NCBI RefSeq assembly: GCF_008711175.1
Contig: NZ_VWNF01000008.1
Span: 1 to 44,995, forward strand
Direction: 5' to 3'
Length of the DNA: 44,995 bases
Origin: Nesterenkonia ebinurensis
GTDB lineage: Bacteria > Actinomycetota > Actinomycetes > Actinomycetales > Micrococcaceae
A program made the position numbers and the translations under genes. The notes beneath the pieces are model-generated. The model was given only the letters and a program-made list of their open reading frames with translations. It was not told the origin of the DNA and did no database searches. Each line of letters starts with the position of its first letter. Positions within the stretch are counted from its first letter, which is position 1. Positions 2,282 through 9,732 of this stretch are shown in pieces.

Positions 2282-2991
2282 AACCGGATCGGCGTGAGAC
2301 GAATCGTTGAAACGGGAATCGAGCTGGCTGACAACCGCGAACTAGAAGCCGCTTCCATACGAAAGTCGTCCAGCACTTCGGTGTAAGCCCCATGGCGCTC
2401 TACAGCCACGTACCCAGCAGAGACGAACTGTTAGCACTGATGGTCGACTCTGTCTACGCTGACCTGTACACCGATACCGACGCAATCAGAACCATCAGCT
2501 CCTGGCGAGCCGGTCTGCAGTACGTGGCCGAACGTAACTGGAAGCTCGTCAACCAGCACCTTTGATTACTTGACGTCCACGATGTGCGCAGCCTGCTGGG
2601 ACCCAATACCAGCCGAAAATACGAAACAGAGCTAAAGACGCTCGACGGTATCGGCCTGTCCGACCTAGATATGGAAGCCGGCTTGACCACGTTGCTGAAT
2701 GTCGTGTGGGGCGCGGCGAGAGACCAGCGCAGCGGCTCCAACTCACGGGAGAACTCTGGCCCTACCTTTTCAGAGTGGTAGAACATCATCGCCCCAGCCC
2801 TCGACCATCTCATGCAGGAAGACGACTACCCAGTCTCAGGACGAGTCGGACCAACTGTCAGCGAGACCTTCAACGCCACCCGGAACTCGCAAAGTACTTT
2901 CTATGCCGTGGTCAACCTTGTGCTGGACGGCATAGAAGCAATAATCAGTACCCCAGAGAGATCATCGGCTGCTCCGCCTGCGACTGTGTGA
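2282..2991 (+). pseudogene. TetR-family regulator remnant
   Basis: Homology is spread over several frames. First comes RRIVETGIELADNRELEAAS, then after a frameshift GVSPMALYSHVPSRDELLAL (the recognition helix region typical of TetR proteins). After a TGA at the end of the VNQHL stretch follow LDVHDVRSLLGPNTSRKYE and LDMEAGLTTLLNVVWGAARD. A last segment, IIAPALDHLMQEDDYPV to VVNLVLDGIEAI, lies beyond another frameshift and a TAG. At least three disruptions are visible, so it is dead. It is divergent from the ABC remnant at 1208-2088, showing that a whole TetR-ABC cassette decayed in place. Confidence 0.8.
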
Positions 2992-3167
2992 GGCCTTCTT
3001 TCGCGTCAACGCCATCGCAATCCATGCCTCTTGCTCGGTGGTGACGGACCTTGCCCTCAGTCCTACGTGCGACGACAGCATCCAGGTGAAACCGCGCTGG
3101 CGGTGTCGTGCTCACAACGTCGAAGGCGAGGAATACGATCCTCGCCATGCTCAATTTATACCGCACG
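2992..3167. other. Stretch without a recognisable gene; one hairpin
   Basis: No open frame here looks like a known protein on either strand. The only structure seen is a hairpin at 3125-3146 (GGCGAGG and CCTCGCC arms, 8-nt loop) with no T-run after it. It separates the dead TetR gene from the palindrome at 3169-3189. Confidence 0.4.
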
Positions 3168-3168
3168 A

Positions 3169-3189
3169 GGGGCCTTGCCGCAAGGCCCC
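3169..3189 (+). promoter_or_regulatory. Probable rifamycin-associated element (RAE)
   Basis: A perfect 21-bp palindrome with arms GGGGCCTTG and CAAGGCCCC around CCG. From memory it closely matches the RAE consensus described in actinobacteria upstream of rifamycin-inactivating enzymes and of helR, where it confers induction by rifampicin. It lies about 150 nt before an MFS exporter followed by a HelR-type gene, exactly the expected context. It is not followed by a T-run, so a terminator is less likely. I cannot place a -10 box with confidence in 3190-3340. Confidence 0.7.
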
Positions 3190-3340
3190 TACCTTAGGGC
3201 AAAATCTAGGACTCGAACGCATTCTCAGGTGAAAGAGGGGCTCACCAAACCTGCCACGATCCCCCACCACTGGAGATCCCTCCCCCGTTGCAAAGCGGAT
3301 ACCTACGCCTGCCCGATACTCATGTTTGGAGACAACAACC

Positions 3341-4846
3341 GTGCCTCGCACCGCAGCCACGCCTGTGACGATCGCGCTCACTGTGATCGCAGGGACGCTC
3401 ATGATCGGCATAGACATGACGATCATGAACATTGCAATTCCCCAGCTCTCGCAGGAGACCGGTGCTTCTCTGCCTGTCATCCAGTGGACAGTGACTGGGT
3501 ATACCTTGGCTCTGGCCGGGGCAGTACCGGCCACTGCGTGGGTCATCAGCAGATTCAGTGCAAGGCGGGTCTTCCTAACCACACTGGGGATCTTTACCGC
3601 CGGGTCAGCGCTGGTGGCGTTCTCGTGGAATGTCGAATCGCTTATCGCCTTCCGGGTACTCCAAGGGCTCGGGGGCGGCTTCGTCCTACCTGCGGCTATG
3701 ACCATCGCGCTCAGTTCCACTCCTCAGGCTGATCGCGGTCGTGTAATGGCGATCCTTGGCCTCCCAGTCCTGGTCGGTCCTGTGCTGGGGCCCGTCTTAG
3801 GTGGGGTCCTCATCGATACGCTCTCCTGGCGCTGGATGTTCCTGCTCAACGTGCCGGTCGGGGTGCTTGGACTCGCCTTGGCTCTGCGCAACCTGCCGCG
3901 GCTCCCCTCCGGGCCCGTCCCCCTGCTGGACGTTCGCGGCCTTCTGCTGCTGCCGCCCGCTATGGCTCTACTCGTGCTCGGCACATCATTTGCTGAGGAC
4001 AACCACATGATATGGATGGTGCTGACGCTCAGCACCGGCTTGGTGCTCACCGCAGTGTTCTTCCGGCACGCTCAGCGGTCAGCAATGCCTCTACTTGATG
4101 TTCGTCTTCTGCGGCGTCGTCTCACAGGAGCCGGCACTATCATCCTGTTCCTGTTCTCCAGCGGATACACCGCGTCGATGGTTCTCCTCCCGATTTATTG
4201 GCAAGTGGTGCGCGGGGAAAGCGCTACCGCGACAGGACTGTTCCTCGCCCCCGCAGGACTCGCAGCCGGGATCGCAATCCAAATCTCCGGGCGTCTCATC
4301 GACCGACTTCCACCAATCCGCGTGATCGGCACGGGCCTAGTCATCGCCACGCTTGCGACAGCAGTCCTGATGCTCCTCCTGGACACAGAGACCCCGGCCT
4401 GGCAGCTGGTGGTGCTCTGGACGGTGATCGCAGTCGGCGCGGGATTCACCATCATGCCGACCACTACCATCGCTACCCGTTCTCTCGAGGGGCAAGAAAT
4501 TCCGTCAGGTTCGACGATTGTGAGCCTGATCAGCCAGGTCTCCGGAGCCATATGCGTTGCCGGTGTCTCTGTGCTGCTGGCTGCTCAGCTAGTGCTCCGG
4601 CTCCCCGCAGCGGCGGACGGCGGCGTGGGCTCGCTATATGCGCTACCTCCGAGGGAGCTCACCGAGCTCGCACCAGAAATTGCCGGAGCTCTCCAGATAG
4701 CTCTCTGCTTGCCGGTGATTCTGACAGCAGCAGCGACGGTGGTCGCGCTCATCACTCTTCGAAACGTACCGGCACCCCAGGCAACTCAATTGCCCGGTGA
4801 CACCGACTCGCAACTTTCCACAGACCAAGACACTGCCACCCACTAA
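3341..4846 (+). CDS. MFS drug exporter, DHA2 (EmrB/QacA) type
   Basis: A 501-residue membrane protein with about 14 hydrophobic segments. An early acidic residue in helix 1 (IGIDMTIMNIAIPQL) and the antiporter motif C region (GLPVLVGPVLGPVLGGVLID, then WRWMFLLNVPVG) are diagnostic of proton-driven drug exporters of the DHA2 group. I chose GTG 3341 (MPRTAATPV) because GGAG at 3328-3331 lies 9 nt upstream; a TTG at 3326 is in frame but lacks a ribosome-binding site. It is followed 30 nt later by helR and preceded by the RAE-like palindrome, so the substrate is probably a rifamycin or similar compound (inference). It has no link to the divergent TetR modules that would suggest another regulator. 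Confidence 0.88.
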   Translation: MPRTAATPVTIALTVIAGTLMIGIDMTIMNIAIPQLSQETGASLPVIQWTVTGYTLALAGAVPATAWVISRFSARRVFLTTLGIFTAGSALVAFSWNVESLIAFRVLQGLGGGFVLPAAMTIALSSTPQADRGRVMAILGLPVLVGPVLGPVLGGVLIDTLSWRWMFLLNVPVGVLGLALALRNLPRLPSGPVPLLDVRGLLLLPPAMALLVLGTSFAEDNHMIWMVLTLSTGLVLTAVFFRHAQRSAMPLLDVRLLRRRLTGAGTIILFLFSSGYTASMVLLPIYWQVVRGESATATGLFLAPAGLAAGIAIQISGRLIDRLPPIRVIGTGLVIATLATAVLMLLLDTETPAWQLVVLWTVIAVGAGFTIMPTTTIATRSLEGQEIPSGSTIVSLISQVSGAICVAGVSVLLAAQLVLRLPAAADGGVGSLYALPPRELTELAPEIAGALQIALCLPVILTAAATVVALITLRNVPAPQATQLPGDTDSQLSTDQDTATH

Positions 4847-4876
4847 CACAGACCCACGATCGAAAACGGAGCAGCC

Positions 4877-7042
4877 ATGACATCTTCTGCCACCAGCGCT
4901 TTCAACCTCCCCGACAAGCTTGCTGCGAAAGACGACCCTCTGCTGATCGGGCACGACGATCAGCACCTTTCAAGCATCGCAGACAGCCTGGAGCACAAGA
5001 TTGCTGAGCTCAAAGACCGCCTCAACGCATTACGTCGTGAGCCCGGGGGAAGAGGCCAGGCTGGGGTTCAACGCGACACCGAGATCCACCAGGTTGCGCG
5101 GCAGCTGAACCTGCTGCAGCGCTTCGGCATGGACCTGTGCCTAGGCCGGATTGTTCGAGCTGACTATTCAGAACCGATCTACATCGGTCGAACCGGCCTC
5201 ACCGCCGTGGGCGGGCGCCGGCTGCTGGTGGATTGGCGCACCCCTGCGGCTGAACCGTTCTTCGCCGCGACGCACGCGACTCCGATGGGCCTAATCAGCC
5301 GTCGTCGATACCGCTGGGCCCATGGACGGGTCGTGGATTACTGGGACGAAGCGTTCACCCCGGGGGAACTCGACGAGGGACACGCAGCCCTCGATGATCA
5401 GTCAGCATTCATCGCTAGCCTAGGGGCCAGTCGCTCACCACGGATGCAGGACGTACTGGCAACTATCCAGGCCGACCAGGACGCCATCATCCGGGCTGAC
5501 TCTCGAGGTGCTCTCGTCGTGGACGGAGGGCCGGGCACCGGGAAAACCGTGGTGGCTTTGCACCGGGCCGCTCGCCTCCTCTACTCGGATCCACGCCTCA
5601 CTGGCCGCACGAGCGGTGTGCTCTTCATTGGCCCTTCCCAGGCCTATCGAGCGTATGTGGATGATGTCCTACCCAGTCTCGGCGAAGACAACGTCCAGAT
5701 CTGCACCATCCCCGACCTGCTTCCCGAGGGAGAGTCCGCCGGCGAAGAGTCTGATGTGCAGGTGGCTCAGCTCAAATCCTCAACGCAACTCACGAAAGCC
5801 ATAGAGACAGCTGTGACGTTCTACGAACAACCGCCCGCCGAAGAGGTGAGCGTCGAGACACCGTGGGCAGATCTCTGGATCGGTCGGCAGGAATGGCAGG
5901 AGGCCTTCAACGCAGTCGACCCCGGCACTCCACACAATGAAGCGCGCGCCCAGGTGTGGGATGCTCTCCTGGAGATCCTGGCCAACCAAGTCGATGACCA
6001 TGATGAGGTCCCTGTCCACCAACTGCACCGATACGCAGCACAGGCTGAGGAGCTGACCCAGACCTTCACCAAGGCATGGCCCCTATTGGATCCATCAAGC
6101 CTAGTCGCCGATCTGTGGTCGTCCCCAACCCACCTGAGCATGTGTGCTCCGTGGCTATCCCCTGAAGAAGTTAACCTGCTCCAGCGTGCGGAACCGCTGG
6201 CTTGGACTCAGTCTGACCTGCCTCTGCTGGACGCAGCACGCCAGCGGGTCGGCGACCCTGAGCAGGTACGGCAAGAACGTCGGCGCAAGGCGGCTCTGCA
6301 GGCGGAGCGGGAGCAGATGTCCCTTGTAATCGATGACCTGATCTCTGCAGATCATGATGGCAACGACGGAGAAGGTCTCGTGACGATGCTCCGCCAAAAT
6401 GACCTGCAGGATCCACTTATCGATCAGGGCACCCTGCCCCGCGTGGCCCCGGACCTCCTATCTGGCCCGTTCGGACACATCATTGTTGACGAGGCACAGG
6501 AGTTCACTGATGCACAGTGGCAGATGATCCTGCGGCGATGCCCCTCCCGCAGCCTCACCATCGTCGGCGACCGGGCCCAAGCCAGGCACGGGTTCACCGA
6601 GACCTGGACAGAGCGGCTCGAACGAATCGGAGTCAGCCCCGTGTCCTTGACCTCTCTGAACATCAACTACCGCACTCCCAAGGAGGTCATGGCTGAGGCA
6701 GCACCTGTGATCCGTGCCGCTCTGCCGGACGCCAATGCCCCCGAATCCATCCGCAGCAGCGGCATCCCCGTGACCCACGGAACGTTAAGCGACCTCGATT
6801 CAATGCTTGACGATTGGCTCCGCGCACACCAGGATGGCACCGCCTGCGTCATCGGCGACCCCACGTTCACTGCAACCCCGAGGGTACGATCCATGACACC
6901 GGAGAACGTCAAGGGCCTGGAGTTCGACTTCGTCATCCTGGTGAATCCAGTGAGCTTCGGCACGGGCATTCAAGGGGCCGTCGACCGTTACGTGGCGATG
7001 ACCCGGGCGACCCAACAGCTTGTCATCCTTAGCAATAGGTGA
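4877..7042 (+). CDS. helR: HelR/HelD-type RNA polymerase-recycling ATPase
   Basis: A 721-residue superfamily 1 helicase-like protein. It has a charged coiled-coil N-terminus (about 30-55), a LLVDWRTPAAEPFF block (about 116-129), Walker A GGPGTGKT at 217-224, a long insertion, Walker B VDEAQEFT at 537-544 and a GDRAQ motif near 564. The C-terminal domain carries VKGLEFDFVI. HelD proteins bind RNA polymerase and remove it from DNA. The HelR branch in Streptomyces and mycobacteria also dislodges rifamycins and gives resistance (family knowledge). ATG 4877 follows GGAG by 5 nt. The gene follows the MFS exporter by 30 nt and shares its RAE-like upstream element. This makes HelR more likely than housekeeping HelD. 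Confidence 0.85.
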   Translation: MTSSATSAFNLPDKLAAKDDPLLIGHDDQHLSSIADSLEHKIAELKDRLNALRREPGGRGQAGVQRDTEIHQVARQLNLLQRFGMDLCLGRIVRADYSEPIYIGRTGLTAVGGRRLLVDWRTPAAEPFFAATHATPMGLISRRRYRWAHGRVVDYWDEAFTPGELDEGHAALDDQSAFIASLGASRSPRMQDVLATIQADQDAIIRADSRGALVVDGGPGTGKTVVALHRAARLLYSDPRLTGRTSGVLFIGPSQAYRAYVDDVLPSLGEDNVQICTIPDLLPEGESAGEESDVQVAQLKSSTQLTKAIETAVTFYEQPPAEEVSVETPWADLWIGRQEWQEAFNAVDPGTPHNEARAQVWDALLEILANQVDDHDEVPVHQLHRYAAQAEELTQTFTKAWPLLDPSSLVADLWSSPTHLSMCAPWLSPEEVNLLQRAEPLAWTQSDLPLLDAARQRVGDPEQVRQERRRKAALQAEREQMSLVIDDLISADHDGNDGEGLVTMLRQNDLQDPLIDQGTLPRVAPDLLSGPFGHIIVDEAQEFTDAQWQMILRRCPSRSLTIVGDRAQARHGFTETWTERLERIGVSPVSLTSLNINYRTPKEVMAEAAPVIRAALPDANAPESIRSSGIPVTHGTLSDLDSMLDDWLRAHQDGTACVIGDPTFTATPRVRSMTPENVKGLEFDFVILVNPVSFGTGIQGAVDRYVAMTRATQQLVILSNR

Positions 7043-7129
7043 TGCTCCGTTGATGAGGTAGTAGTCGCCTACGCCCCGGGAATGCAGCAGCTCATGACTC
7101 CTTGACGACTCAGGATGCGACTTACCCCG

Positions 7130-7915
7130 CTACTCGGTGTCGACAGGGTTCTGCCTTCTCTGCTGCTCCATTGCTTCCAAACCGGCGATGAGCAGGTCAA
7201 GACCAAGATCATATTCAGGGTCGATACCGTGGTCAGATTCGATCACGGGGGTGTCATCGGCTATGTAATTACCGGACTCCATCACTGGTACCAAGTGGGG
7301 GAACCGCTCTGGGGTGATGACTTCGGATAGCGCTTTGACGCCCTCAGCAGGAACAGCGACGACTCCTTGATCGGCCAGGTTCTGCTCAAGCTCAACAGAT
7401 CCCGCCACATGCTGGGAGATCACCAGAATCACACCGATCTTCTCATCGTTAGTCAGCGGCAAGTCTCTCAAGGCAGCTAGTCCATGGTTTGCACCCCGAA
7501 CACTGTTGGGCATCAGAACGGAGACGGGTCCGCGCGGGATGTCCAATGCCCAAGAGTGGGAACGGTACGCCACACGAATCACTCCCGCCCAAACCCTTAG
7601 CGCCTCACGCCAGTCAGCTGGAAGCTTCAGCTTCTCCGGGATAGCAAGGGCAGCATCCTGCATCAGCCAGAGCAACTCCTCCTTGCTGGAGACATACCGA
7701 TAGAGCGACATCGTTGTAAAGCCCAGAGATTTAGCAACTGCCTGCATGGTGACTGCAGCCAGCCCCTCGGCATCGGCAATCTCAATAGCGGCTCCAACAA
7801 TTCGCTCATGACTCAGCCCACGACTCGGTCCACGCTGAGGCACCTCCTCCATCCCCCAGGCAATGGCGACTGCTCGAGGCAGCCCGGTATCAGTGGTCTC
7901 GACCATGTCTCCCAT
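7130..7915 (-). CDS. TetR-family transcriptional repressor of the adjacent ABC exporter
   Basis: 261 residues. The N-terminal helix-turn-helix is clear: HERIVGAAIEIADAEGLAAV, then VAKSLGFTTMSLYRYVSSKEEL (about residues 40-90). The long C-terminal ligand domain is of the type often seen beside DrrAB-like exporters in actinobacteria. It is divergent from the ABC genes starting at 7971 and shares with them the 21-bp operator at 7947-7967. A CATAAT -10 box (7927-7922) lies 6 nt before ATG 7915, so its mRNA is probably leaderless and the operator lies just upstream. It may also bind the copy of the operator at 1032-1052. The 87 bp between its end and helR hold nothing clear. Confidence 0.87.
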   Translation of the reverse strand: MGDMVETTDTGLPRAVAIAWGMEEVPQRGPSRGLSHERIVGAAIEIADAEGLAAVTMQAVAKSLGFTTMSLYRYVSSKEELLWLMQDAALAIPEKLKLPADWREALRVWAGVIRVAYRSHSWALDIPRGPVSVLMPNSVRGANHGLAALRDLPLTNDEKIGVILVISQHVAGSVELEQNLADQGVVAVPAEGVKALSEVITPERFPHLVPVMESGNYIADDTPVIESDHGIDPEYDLGLDLLIAGLEAMEQQRRQNPVDTE

Positions 7916-7970
7916 TCTTTCATTATGCCTCGATGTGCATGTAATACACAGTATGTGTCATACTCTGTTT
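7916..7970. promoter_or_regulatory. Divergent promoter region with TetR operator (7947-7967)
   Basis: The operator has arms CACAGTATG and CATACTCTG around TGT, with one mismatch between arms. Leftward, CATAAT (7927-7922) is a -10 for the TetR gene. Rightward, CATACT (7959-7964) within the operator lies 6 nt before ATG 7971 and no ribosome-binding site is visible, so the ABC mRNA is probably leaderless and repressed by occlusion of its -10. Confidence 0.65.
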
Positions 7971-8882
7971 ATGAGTTACACAGATACGCCGCTCGTCGAG
8001 ATCGCAGGACTCTCCAAGAGCTACGGCAAACACCACGTCCTGAAAGACCTGAACCTCACCCTCCCCCCGGGAATCCATGCCCTACTGGGCCCCAATGGAG
8101 CAGGCAAGACCACGCTGGTCAACATCCTTTCCACTCTCATCCCCTATAGCGCCGGCCAGGCGCGAGTGCTGGGCCTTGATGTCCAACGCGACCGCAAGCA
8201 GCTCCAAGGCCTCATCTCCCTGACAGGCCAGTACGCCGCCGTAGACGGTGCACTCTCCGGGATGGAGAACATGCTGATGATGGGCCAGCTCTTTGGCCTC
8301 ACTCGCCGGGACGCAAAACGCCGGGCCGATGACCTGCTTGAGCGTTTCGAGCTGACCAAGGCGGCTGGCAAACGAGCAGCTACCTACTCCGGTGGCATGC
8401 GTCGCAAACTGGACATCGCCGCGAGTCTCATCGCAGGTCCCCAGCTGATTTTCTTGGACGAACCGACCACCGGCCTAGATACCCGCAGCCGTCAGGCACT
8501 CTGGGACGAGATCAACACCCTGGCCGCAGCTGGAACGTCCATCTTCCTAACCACCCAGTATCTGGAAGAGGCTGACGTGCTCGCCGAGCGAATCATGGTG
8601 CTCAACGGCGGCGGAATTGTCGCAGACGGGACAGCTGCTCAGCTGAAACAACGCGTTGGTGGCTCAACCATCCAACTTCACGATGACGCCGGGCACATCA
8701 TCGAGACTTTGCCCACCCATGGGGATGCTGCTGACGTCGCCCACCAGTTGGCGGCTATTTCCGAGCAGCGCCCCGAAGTCAGCGTGACCGTACGCAAACC
8801 CACTATGGACGAAGTGTTCCTTGAACTCACTGGCGCGCCAGTGCCGACGAACAGCAACAAGAAGGAGGCAACCAGTGAGTAA
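7971..8882 (+). CDS. ABC transporter ATP-binding protein, daunorubicin-resistance (DrrA) type
   Basis: 303 residues. Walker A GPNGAGKT (40-47), Q-loop in TGQYAAVDGALSG, signature YSGGMRRKLD (139-148) and Walker B LIFLDEP (159-165) are all intact. These are followed by TTQYLEEADVLAERI, characteristic of the DrrA/CcmA-type ATPases that drive ABC-2 drug exporters. ATG 7971 (MSYTDTPLVEI) is chosen over upstream in-frame codons because those fall in the promoter/operator. The permease start overlaps its stop by 8 nt (GTGAGTAA). The linked TetR and operator suggest induction by the exported compound, whose identity cannot be told. Confidence 0.92.
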   Translation: MSYTDTPLVEIAGLSKSYGKHHVLKDLNLTLPPGIHALLGPNGAGKTTLVNILSTLIPYSAGQARVLGLDVQRDRKQLQGLISLTGQYAAVDGALSGMENMLMMGQLFGLTRRDAKRRADDLLERFELTKAAGKRAATYSGGMRRKLDIAASLIAGPQLIFLDEPTTGLDTRSRQALWDEINTLAAAGTSIFLTTQYLEEADVLAERIMVLNGGGIVADGTAAQLKQRVGGSTIQLHDDAGHIIETLPTHGDAADVAHQLAAISEQRPEVSVTVRKPTMDEVFLELTGAPVPTNSNKKEATSE

Positions 8883-9732
8883 CACTGCTACCCGACCCAC
8901 AACCGAGCAAGCGGCCCGCAGCGCGGCACCACGCAGCAATGAGCCAATGTCCGGTGCCAACTTCTTGACCGGTTTGATTGTTTTCTCGATAAGGAGCCTC
9001 AAGCACTCGTTCCGAGACGCAGAGTCCCTATTGATGGCGGTGATCCTGCCGGTCATGCTCATGCTCATCTTTACCTACGTGATGGGCGGAGCAATGGATG
9101 TCACTGGAGACGGATCCACCTCCAGCGCTCAGTATCTCTCCTATGTACTCCCAGCGATTGTGGTCACCGCAGCTGGCTTCGGCGCCTCATACACGGCCGT
9201 TGTTGTCAGCAACGACATGACCACTGGATTCATGAACAGACTTCGCACCATGCCTTTTCCCTCAGTCACCGTACTGTTAGGGCACACGGTGTCCTCAATG
9301 GTACGAAACCTACTGGCCACCGCCGTGGTCTTCGCGGTGGCCCTCGCGGTCGGGTTCCGCACCGACGCCTCAGCGGCGCAGCTGGCTGGTTCAGTAGGCC
9401 TAGTTGCCCTGTGGATCCTGGTGATTACCGTAGTCTTCGCAGTGCTTGGAATGGTGGCAGGATCAGCCGAATCAGCAAGTGGATACGGATTTATGCTTCT
9501 CTTCCTGCCCTACGTCTCATCTGGCTTCGCGCCGGTAGAGTCCATGCCTAACTGGCTGCAGGGCTTTGCCCAGCACCAGCCCATGACTCCCATCATCGAC
9601 GCCTCCCGCGCTCTGCTCAACGGAGAAACCCCGGGCAACGAGTGGTGGATCGGCATCCTGTGGTGCGCCGGATTCGTCGCGCTGGCCGTGTGGATGGCAG
9701 CTGTACTCTTTCCCAAGAAGGTTGCCCGCTAG
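8875..9732 (+). CDS. ABC-2 type permease, DrrB-like
   Basis: 285 residues with about six hydrophobic segments. The pattern SIRSLKHSFRD before helix 1, the DMTTGFMNRLRTMP cytoplasmic loop and the SSGFAPVESMPNWLQ segment near the C-terminus is that of ABC-2 permeases of the daunorubicin-resistance class. The start is GTG 8875 (MSNTATRPTT), with AAGGAGG at 8861-8867 seven nt upstream, and it overlaps the ATPase gene. It forms the membrane part of the exporter with the ATPase at 7971-8882. A dead paralogue lies at 1208-1704. Confidence 0.92.
   Translation: MSNTATRPTTEQAARSAAPRSNEPMSGANFLTGLIVFSIRSLKHSFRDAESLLMAVILPVMLMLIFTYVMGGAMDVTGDGSTSSAQYLSYVLPAIVVTAAGFGASYTAVVVSNDMTTGFMNRLRTMPFPSVTVLLGHTVSSMVRNLLATAVVFAVALAVGFRTDASAAQLAGSVGLVALWILVITVVFAVLGMVAGSAESASGYGFMLLFLPYVSSGFAPVESMPNWLQGFAQHQPMTPIIDASRALLNGETPGNEWWIGILWCAGFVALAVWMAAVLFPKKVAR

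Follow-up and report, generated by a model that had tools for sequence, protein, structure and literature searches.

A rifamycin-associated element, an exporter gene and helR in Nesterenkonia ebinurensis: a predicted rifamycin-induced operon

Can one rifamycin-responsive element govern both a drug exporter and a protein that frees RNA polymerase from the drug? This question is raised by the window analyzed here, the entire contig C9 (44,995 bases) of a 3.74-Mb Nesterenkonia ebinurensis genome (Micrococcaceae), in which a palindrome at 3169-3189 is followed by a major facilitator superfamily (MFS) exporter gene and by helR. We propose that this rifamycin-associated element (RAE), the exporter gene and helR make up one rifamycin-induced operon, predicted from sequence, that would likely pair drug export with HelR stripping the drug off RNA polymerase. 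The probability of this reading is put at roughly 0.5.

The palindrome, the exporter gene and HelR

The sequence GGGGCCTTGCCGCAAGGCCCC at 3169-3189 (no strand assigned) is a perfect odd palindrome with one central base and reads TTGC on either strand. Nowhere else in the 3.74-Mb genome was a 21-nt RAE-like pattern matched with fewer than 3 mismatches. In 100 dinucleotide-shuffled versions of the window, nothing came within 3 mismatches of the palindrome. The 19-bp RAE palindrome GGGNCTTGCSGCAAGNCCC was matched exactly at 3170-3188; this pattern was built from the loci compared here and not from a published sequence, and PMC10719064, in the sections used here, describes the RAE as a 19-bp palindrome. 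The first-pass annotation had reported a perfect 21-bp palindrome about 150 nt before an MFS exporter and taken it for an RAE-like element. The distance from the palindrome end to the MFS gene start at 3341 is 151 nt, and the identification was upheld because the same element and its flanking promoter-like boxes are found before other helR and rox-like genes. In addition, the palindrome precedes a HelR-family resistance gene and overlaps the -35 of a predicted sense promoter with a CAAAAT box. As judged by these comparisons, 3169-3189 is an RAE.

The exporter gene (3341-4846, + strand) encodes a 501-amino-acid (aa) protein of the DHA2/EmrB type. Its GTG start is preceded by GGAG, and full-length relatives align from that start. 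The protein scored 278.8 bits to TIGR00711 (EmrB/DHA2; cut-off, 230.2) and also matched PF07690, but among the best 25 of 52 matching families no drug-specific NCBIfam model was over its cut-off. The helR gene (4877-7042, + strand), of the RNA polymerase recycling/rifamycin-protection ATPase family, has its own GGAG and starts 30 nt after the MFS stop on the same strand (4846 versus 4877), the spacing given in the first-pass annotation. No + strand terminator-like site lies between the palindrome and helR; three sites were listed in 2900-7900, and both + strand ones are inside helR. With the exporter gene placed between the RAE and helR, a joint induction of both genes is predicted.

The 721-aa product of helR scored 1171.8 bits to motor_HelR (NF041254; cut-off, 750), 429.3 bits to motor_HelR_2, and 392.4 and 99.8 bits to two HelD models. 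In a tree of 33 hand-chosen rows, 21 HelR and 12 HelD rows separated at 100/100, and the window's protein paired at 99/94 with HelR of the sister species N. haasae (73% identical), outside the housekeeping HelD clade. Both results agree with the earlier naming of this product as HelR. Since motifs and sequence kinship are common to HelR and HelD, the protein might be a housekeeping HelD that merely recycles stalled polymerase, but its NF041254 score and tree position place it in HelR, and the same genome encodes a separate HelD-type paralogue (444.7 bits; a third match was weak at 27.6 bits). Furthermore, this HelR clade was present in only 2 of 30 members of the genus (26 of the 30 genomes at least 90% complete), which is the pattern of an accessory gene and not of a housekeeping one. 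A housekeeping role is therefore considered very improbable, and the 721-aa protein is by sequence a true HelR (Class II HelD) with predicted rifamycin protection. Its ATPase motifs are intact (Walker A GGPGTGKT and VDEAQ). The PCh-loop region aligns, with an acidic tip, SADHDGNDGEG, where mycobacterial HelD has its PCh-loop tip; the Glu-Asp pair of mycobacterial HelD, mutated in Mycobacterium abscessus, is not kept letter for letter here or in most aligned HelRs. HelD of Mycobacterium smegmatis grouped on the HelD side of the tree, on a long branch, whereas PMC8655204, in the part used here, puts it in its 'potential helR' group; this difference in placement leaves the HelR/HelD boundary unsettled for mycobacteria.

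A predicted mirror-image promoter frame at the RAE

Alignment of 56 distinct upstream regions on the RAE revealed two additional conserved boxes. To 105 distinct exact RAE sites, taken with 60 nt of context, a simple rule applied: in 103 of them, each strand carries a NANNNT hexamer whose first base is exactly 21 nt from the dyad centre (58 of 60 once the sites were clustered so that flanks were below 70% identity). At any other offset from 12 to 30, hexamers on both sides occurred in at most 1 of the 105 sites. For single sides, offset 21 accounted for 207 of 210, with offset 27 as the runner-up (68 of 210); from base composition, the chance rate would be about 4% for one side and 0.2% for the two together. 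Since only the inner 19 bases were used to pick the sites, the boxes are no search artefact. There were two exceptions. In L159, one of the two hexamers is shifted by a single base; L193, the only RAE match in viral contigs, has neither box and was taken as a chance match.

The near-invariant A and T of the hexamer are the most important positions in bacterial -10 elements. The frame also has a constant polarity. In 112 rows (79 with helR and 33 with rox-like genes downstream), T is the first base of the antisense hexamer in 111, L159 being the exception, while the first base of the sense hexamer is C in 92 rows, G in 11, A in 4 and T in 5, that is, other than T in 107. Without four repeat rows (L122, L123, L124, and L178), the antisense T was found in 107 of 108, and the sense counts were C 88, G 11, A 4, and T 5. 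The window's RAE has both boxes at the standard distance. The sense -10-like box CAAAAT (3200-3205, + strand) lies 19 nt past TTGCCG (3175-3180), with a predicted direction toward the MFS gene and helR, and the antisense box TAAATT (3158 to 3153, - strand) mirrors it about the RAE centre. Given the mirror-image boxes and their constant polarity, the RAE has the appearance of a -35 shared by two promoters that stand back to back.

The predicted sense promoter agrees with promoter 2 of PMC10719064, whose -35 is described there as overlapping the RAE. Promoter 1 of the same source starts about 20 bp upstream of the RAE and is unaccounted for by the two-promoter frame. The antisense box is without mention in those parts of the published RAE descriptions that were examined, PMC10719064 among them. 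The outer GGG/CCC of the RAE was conserved at 0.96-1.0 in the homology-found helR loci (best site with at most 4 mismatches used), which exceeds what a -35 needs. As a separate observation, in the stretch about 5-28 nt upstream of the RAE in helR loci, conserved C-rich positions at -24 to -28 lie past the antisense -10 box, as counted from the RAE; these would be the first bases of the predicted antisense transcript.

In the proposed mechanism, polymerase would occupy the near-consensus antisense promoter in the absence of the drug and would be barred from the overlapping sense promoter. With the drug, a dimeric rifamycin-responsive factor on the GGG..CCC palindrome would move polymerase off the antisense promoter and onto the sense one, and the sense transcript would cover both the exporter gene and helR. 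The exporter, whose substrates would include rifamycins, would then pump the drug out, and HelR would strip it from RNA polymerase. The factor that acts at the RAE is called unknown in the relevant parts of both PMC10719064 (a 2022 review) and PMC12802891 (2026).

The switch might instead work with no dedicated regulator, by competition of polymerase alone between the back-to-back promoters, or by an RNA hairpin. The mirror-image -10 boxes with constant polarity would suit such competition, as would a regulator-free alarm of antisense and sense promoters that has been published for helD of Bacillus subtilis (PMC12802891). According to the sections of that source used here, B. subtilis helD and pps are under a convergent-promoter rifampicin alarm, and moving the promoters 17 bp closer, where polymerases exclude each other, abolished induction; the RAE promoters share a -35, and the result argues against a polymerase-only version of the RAE. 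The alarm resembles the RAE frame in that a sense and an antisense promoter lie before a rifampicin-protection gene, but its promoters face each other and could be occupied together, whereas the RAE promoters are predicted to stand back to back over one palindrome (PMC12802891). Facing promoters of this type were not found at the RAE, where the boxes point apart; no search was made for convergent promoters elsewhere. The alarm is, by analogy, a working parallel and not a member of the same family. The conservation of the outer GGG/CCC also speaks against polymerase alone. The palindrome is able to fold, but the hairpin was rejected, since only 24 of 60 clustered sites are complementary at the variable pair 3/15, with 2 more as G-T; Rfam gave no match in 2400-8000. 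Altogether, a switch without a dedicated regulator is considered a real but less likely possibility, and a factor-assisted shift between the two promoters is the version retained here.

The RAE and helR in other genomes

The order seen in the window was compared with that at other helR loci. In a family sample of 245 genomes, 39 had a HelR over the cut-off, and 40 were compared, namely these and one with a split copy (G167). An RAE with at most 3 mismatches was present in all 40 and lay 20-169 nt before helR in 38; here and below, distances run to a helR start extrapolated from tblastn. Among the 38 close-spaced loci, L095, L205, and L208 had 3-mismatch RAEs, and a single locus (L077) had an MFS match, 25% identical and past the far end of helR. 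The two exceptions in distance were the window, at 1688 nt with the exporter gene between, and N. haasae, at 787 nt with exporter scraps between. Among GTDB contigs, 25 of 26 helR loci found by homology had an RAE 18-91 nt ahead of helR, and the window's exporter was matched in none of the 26 stretches. The remaining locus (L023, an Actinomycetota metagenome-assembled genome) has helR and no recognisable RAE in the scanned upstream stretch. Of 30 matching records in a plasmid collection, 8 were compared, and an RAE was found 67-232 nt before helR in 6 of them; two records, from Embleya (L161) and Streptomyces sp. NBC_01237 (L210), have helR without a recognisable RAE in the scanned upstream stretch. 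The palindrome is therefore kept upstream of orthologues, as an RAE was expected to be. Elsewhere in the family sample the RAE directly precedes helR, and in these comparisons an exporter gene between the two is an unusual order, in line with the first-pass statement that an exporter and HelR under one RAE is not standard.

Among the closest known systems are the RAE-helR loci of Streptomyces venezuelae (SVEN_6029) and M. abscessus (MAB_3189c), where an RAE likewise stands before a Class II HelD/HelR gene with the sense -35 overlapping the RAE (PMC10719064 and PMC8655204, in the parts used here). The window differs from both by the MFS exporter gene between RAE and helR and by the mirror-image antisense box.

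The distance of 1688 nt, set against 20-169 nt in 38 family genomes, could also mean that helR has escaped the RAE, which would then serve the MFS gene only, with a helR promoter inside or just after that gene. The 30-nt gap on the same strand argues against this, as does the lack of a + strand terminator-like site before helR. Across 2900-7900, a crude standard promoter scan called no + strand sigma-70-like site. Moreover, a second two-gene RAE unit was found in genome G385 (L187, L214), with an RAE at 1690, an Rgt-like gene at 1769-2977 and helR at 3078-5258 in reverse-complement coordinates. Its helR, 62% identical to that of the window, is full length and follows the Rgt-like gene after 100 nt. 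We regard an escape of helR as improbable and retain transcription of both genes from the RAE.

In the family sample, 55 exact 19-mer sites were found in 55 of the 245 genomes, of which 24 precede rox-like genes, 30 precede helR and 1 precedes the exporter gene. The rox-like genes were 37-100% identical to that of L113, which passes the rif_monoox cut-off (all rox rows compared). A phylum sample gave 22 exact sites in 17 of 184 genomes, 2 of them repeating family-sample sites. These precede rox-like genes, helR, arr (L180 and L181), rph (L194, L195, L197, and L192) and one Rgt-like gene. The RAE-linked Rox, Arr, and Rph loci have the same frame, with the RAE before the gene; in the window, the first gene encodes an exporter and not a drug-modifying enzyme. 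The G385 unit shares with the window a full-length helR in second place, but its first gene encodes a glycosyltransferase (491.7 bits to NF000354, under the cut-off of 800). In G418 (L186, L216; 2035-2589, reverse complement), what is left between the RAE and a full-length helR is a run of about 28 codons similar to the beginning of the Rgt-like gene; as the alignment reads, it is the second of two loci whose first gene has decayed. At another locus (L192 in G387, 1501-1870), a 93-aa frame that resembles the start of rox, and was unmatched by the rox query, lies between the RAE and rph.

Exchange behind the RAE and the origin of the exporter

The first case of decay is N. haasae. Its order is RAE, exporter scraps and helR, with helR still open. 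The scraps match exporter residues 1-84 (58%), 171-222 (57%), and 464-493 (63%, containing a stop) and are spread over more than one frame; a 224-aa open frame still begins in them. Farther along lie a VTT gene and a set of DrrB (278 aa), DrrA (333 aa), and TetR (262 aa) genes, all open frames, here called set 1. The window has VTT and set 1 on the left side of the RAE. Set 1 is open in N. haasae (L096, L215) but in pieces in the window (DrrB, DrrA, and TetR remains at 1208-2990, no strand assigned, the far end of the TetR remnant judged by eye), and the RAE-helR unit stands on opposite sides of it in the two species. Thus, by sequence, each species retains pieces that have decayed in its sister.

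To the right of helR in the window is a second set, outside the RAE unit. It consists of a TetR-family regulator gene (7130-7915, - strand), divergent from the adjoining ATP-binding cassette (ABC) exporter genes, and a DrrA/DrrB-type pair in open frames (7863-9732, + strand). The set 2 TetR, DrrA, and DrrB of N. haasae are 79%, 85%, and 91% identical to these. Between the two TetR genes, the window has RAE, exporter gene and helR, and N. haasae has an Rgt-like gene (L217, 2851-4091; 411 aa; scored 395.2 bits against the Rgt model, under the cut-off of 800). An RAE-like element with 2 mismatches stands before this Rgt-like gene too, 58 nt from the ATG, and the boxes CAAAAT (sense) and TATATT (antisense) are at their usual places. 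No Rgt-like match was found in the window; the rest of the N. ebinurensis genome was not searched for one. The differing content between the two TetR genes indicates that RAE units were exchanged at one site.

The relatives of the exporter point to another setting. Among 120 listed of 1207 matches, the closest other proteins were 69-75% identical, and matches at 60-63% came from Nocardioides, Microbacterium, and Blastococcus. In Nocardioides, 16 of 215 genomes had the exporter at E 1e-110, and larger regions were compared for 14 of them. Nine of the 14 regions, with an MFS protein 60-63% identical to the window's, have the order DrrA-DrrB-MFS on one strand, with a facing TetR gene in 8 of the 9; the other five (MFS 54-56% identical) are without this order. 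In the regions compared, neither an RAE nor a helR match accompanied these DrrA-DrrB-MFS-TetR islands (L162-L170). A 61%-identical exporter was recorded from Microbacterium sp. C7(2022), a genus that we take to belong to the Curtobacterium family. A search of 398 Curtobacterium-family genomes at E 1e-100 gave no match to the exporter, a weak negative because the search had no positive control. Most likely, as these neighbourhoods suggest, the exporter gene came to its place behind the RAE out of an ABC/MFS/TetR efflux island like those of Nocardioides.

Several of these points weigh against a rifamycin operon. An RAE was found in none of the 14 Nocardioides exporter regions, and the closer relatives go with DrrA, DrrB, and TetR, so the label 'rifamycin exporter' derives from position alone, and the exporter's original substrate may be a different drug. 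The best other exporter matches reach only 36-37% identity in the family sample (next best, 36%, E 3.2e-72) and, for the phylum sample, 38-40%. In N. haasae the exporter was lost while helR stayed, which indicates that the pump is dispensable there. In addition, the standard promoter scan missed the RAE promoters themselves, whose 19-nt spacer falls outside its 16-18 range. The exporter could be a passenger, co-induced by its position but exporting another compound, that of its DrrAB/TetR island, so that only HelR would count for rifamycins. The Nocardioides islands, the decay in N. haasae beside an open helR, and the DrrAB/TetR sets that flank the RAE unit in the window would all fit; yet the window's exporter gene is full length and stands first behind the RAE, the position held elsewhere by known rifamycin-resistance genes. 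We consider a passenger a real possibility, though not a probable one, and continue to favor an operon that joins export to HelR.

A wider reading of the RAE is one that we hold tentatively and at slightly under even odds. The RAE would be the shared -35 core of a mirror-symmetric promoter pair, in which a near-consensus antisense promoter restrains the weaker sense promoter until rifamycin is present. The place behind it would be an exchange slot for rox, arr, rph, rgt, helR, and the exporter gene; newcomers would also enter ahead of helR and decay there. The later comparisons with N. haasae, G385, and G418 strengthened this exchange-slot part.

If the unit works as predicted, efflux and polymerase protection would be coupled in one inducible operon, and the RAE would be able to recruit new kinds of gene. 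The mirror-image promoter frame, for its part, makes a concrete and testable claim on how actinobacteria may sense rifamycins through the RAE.

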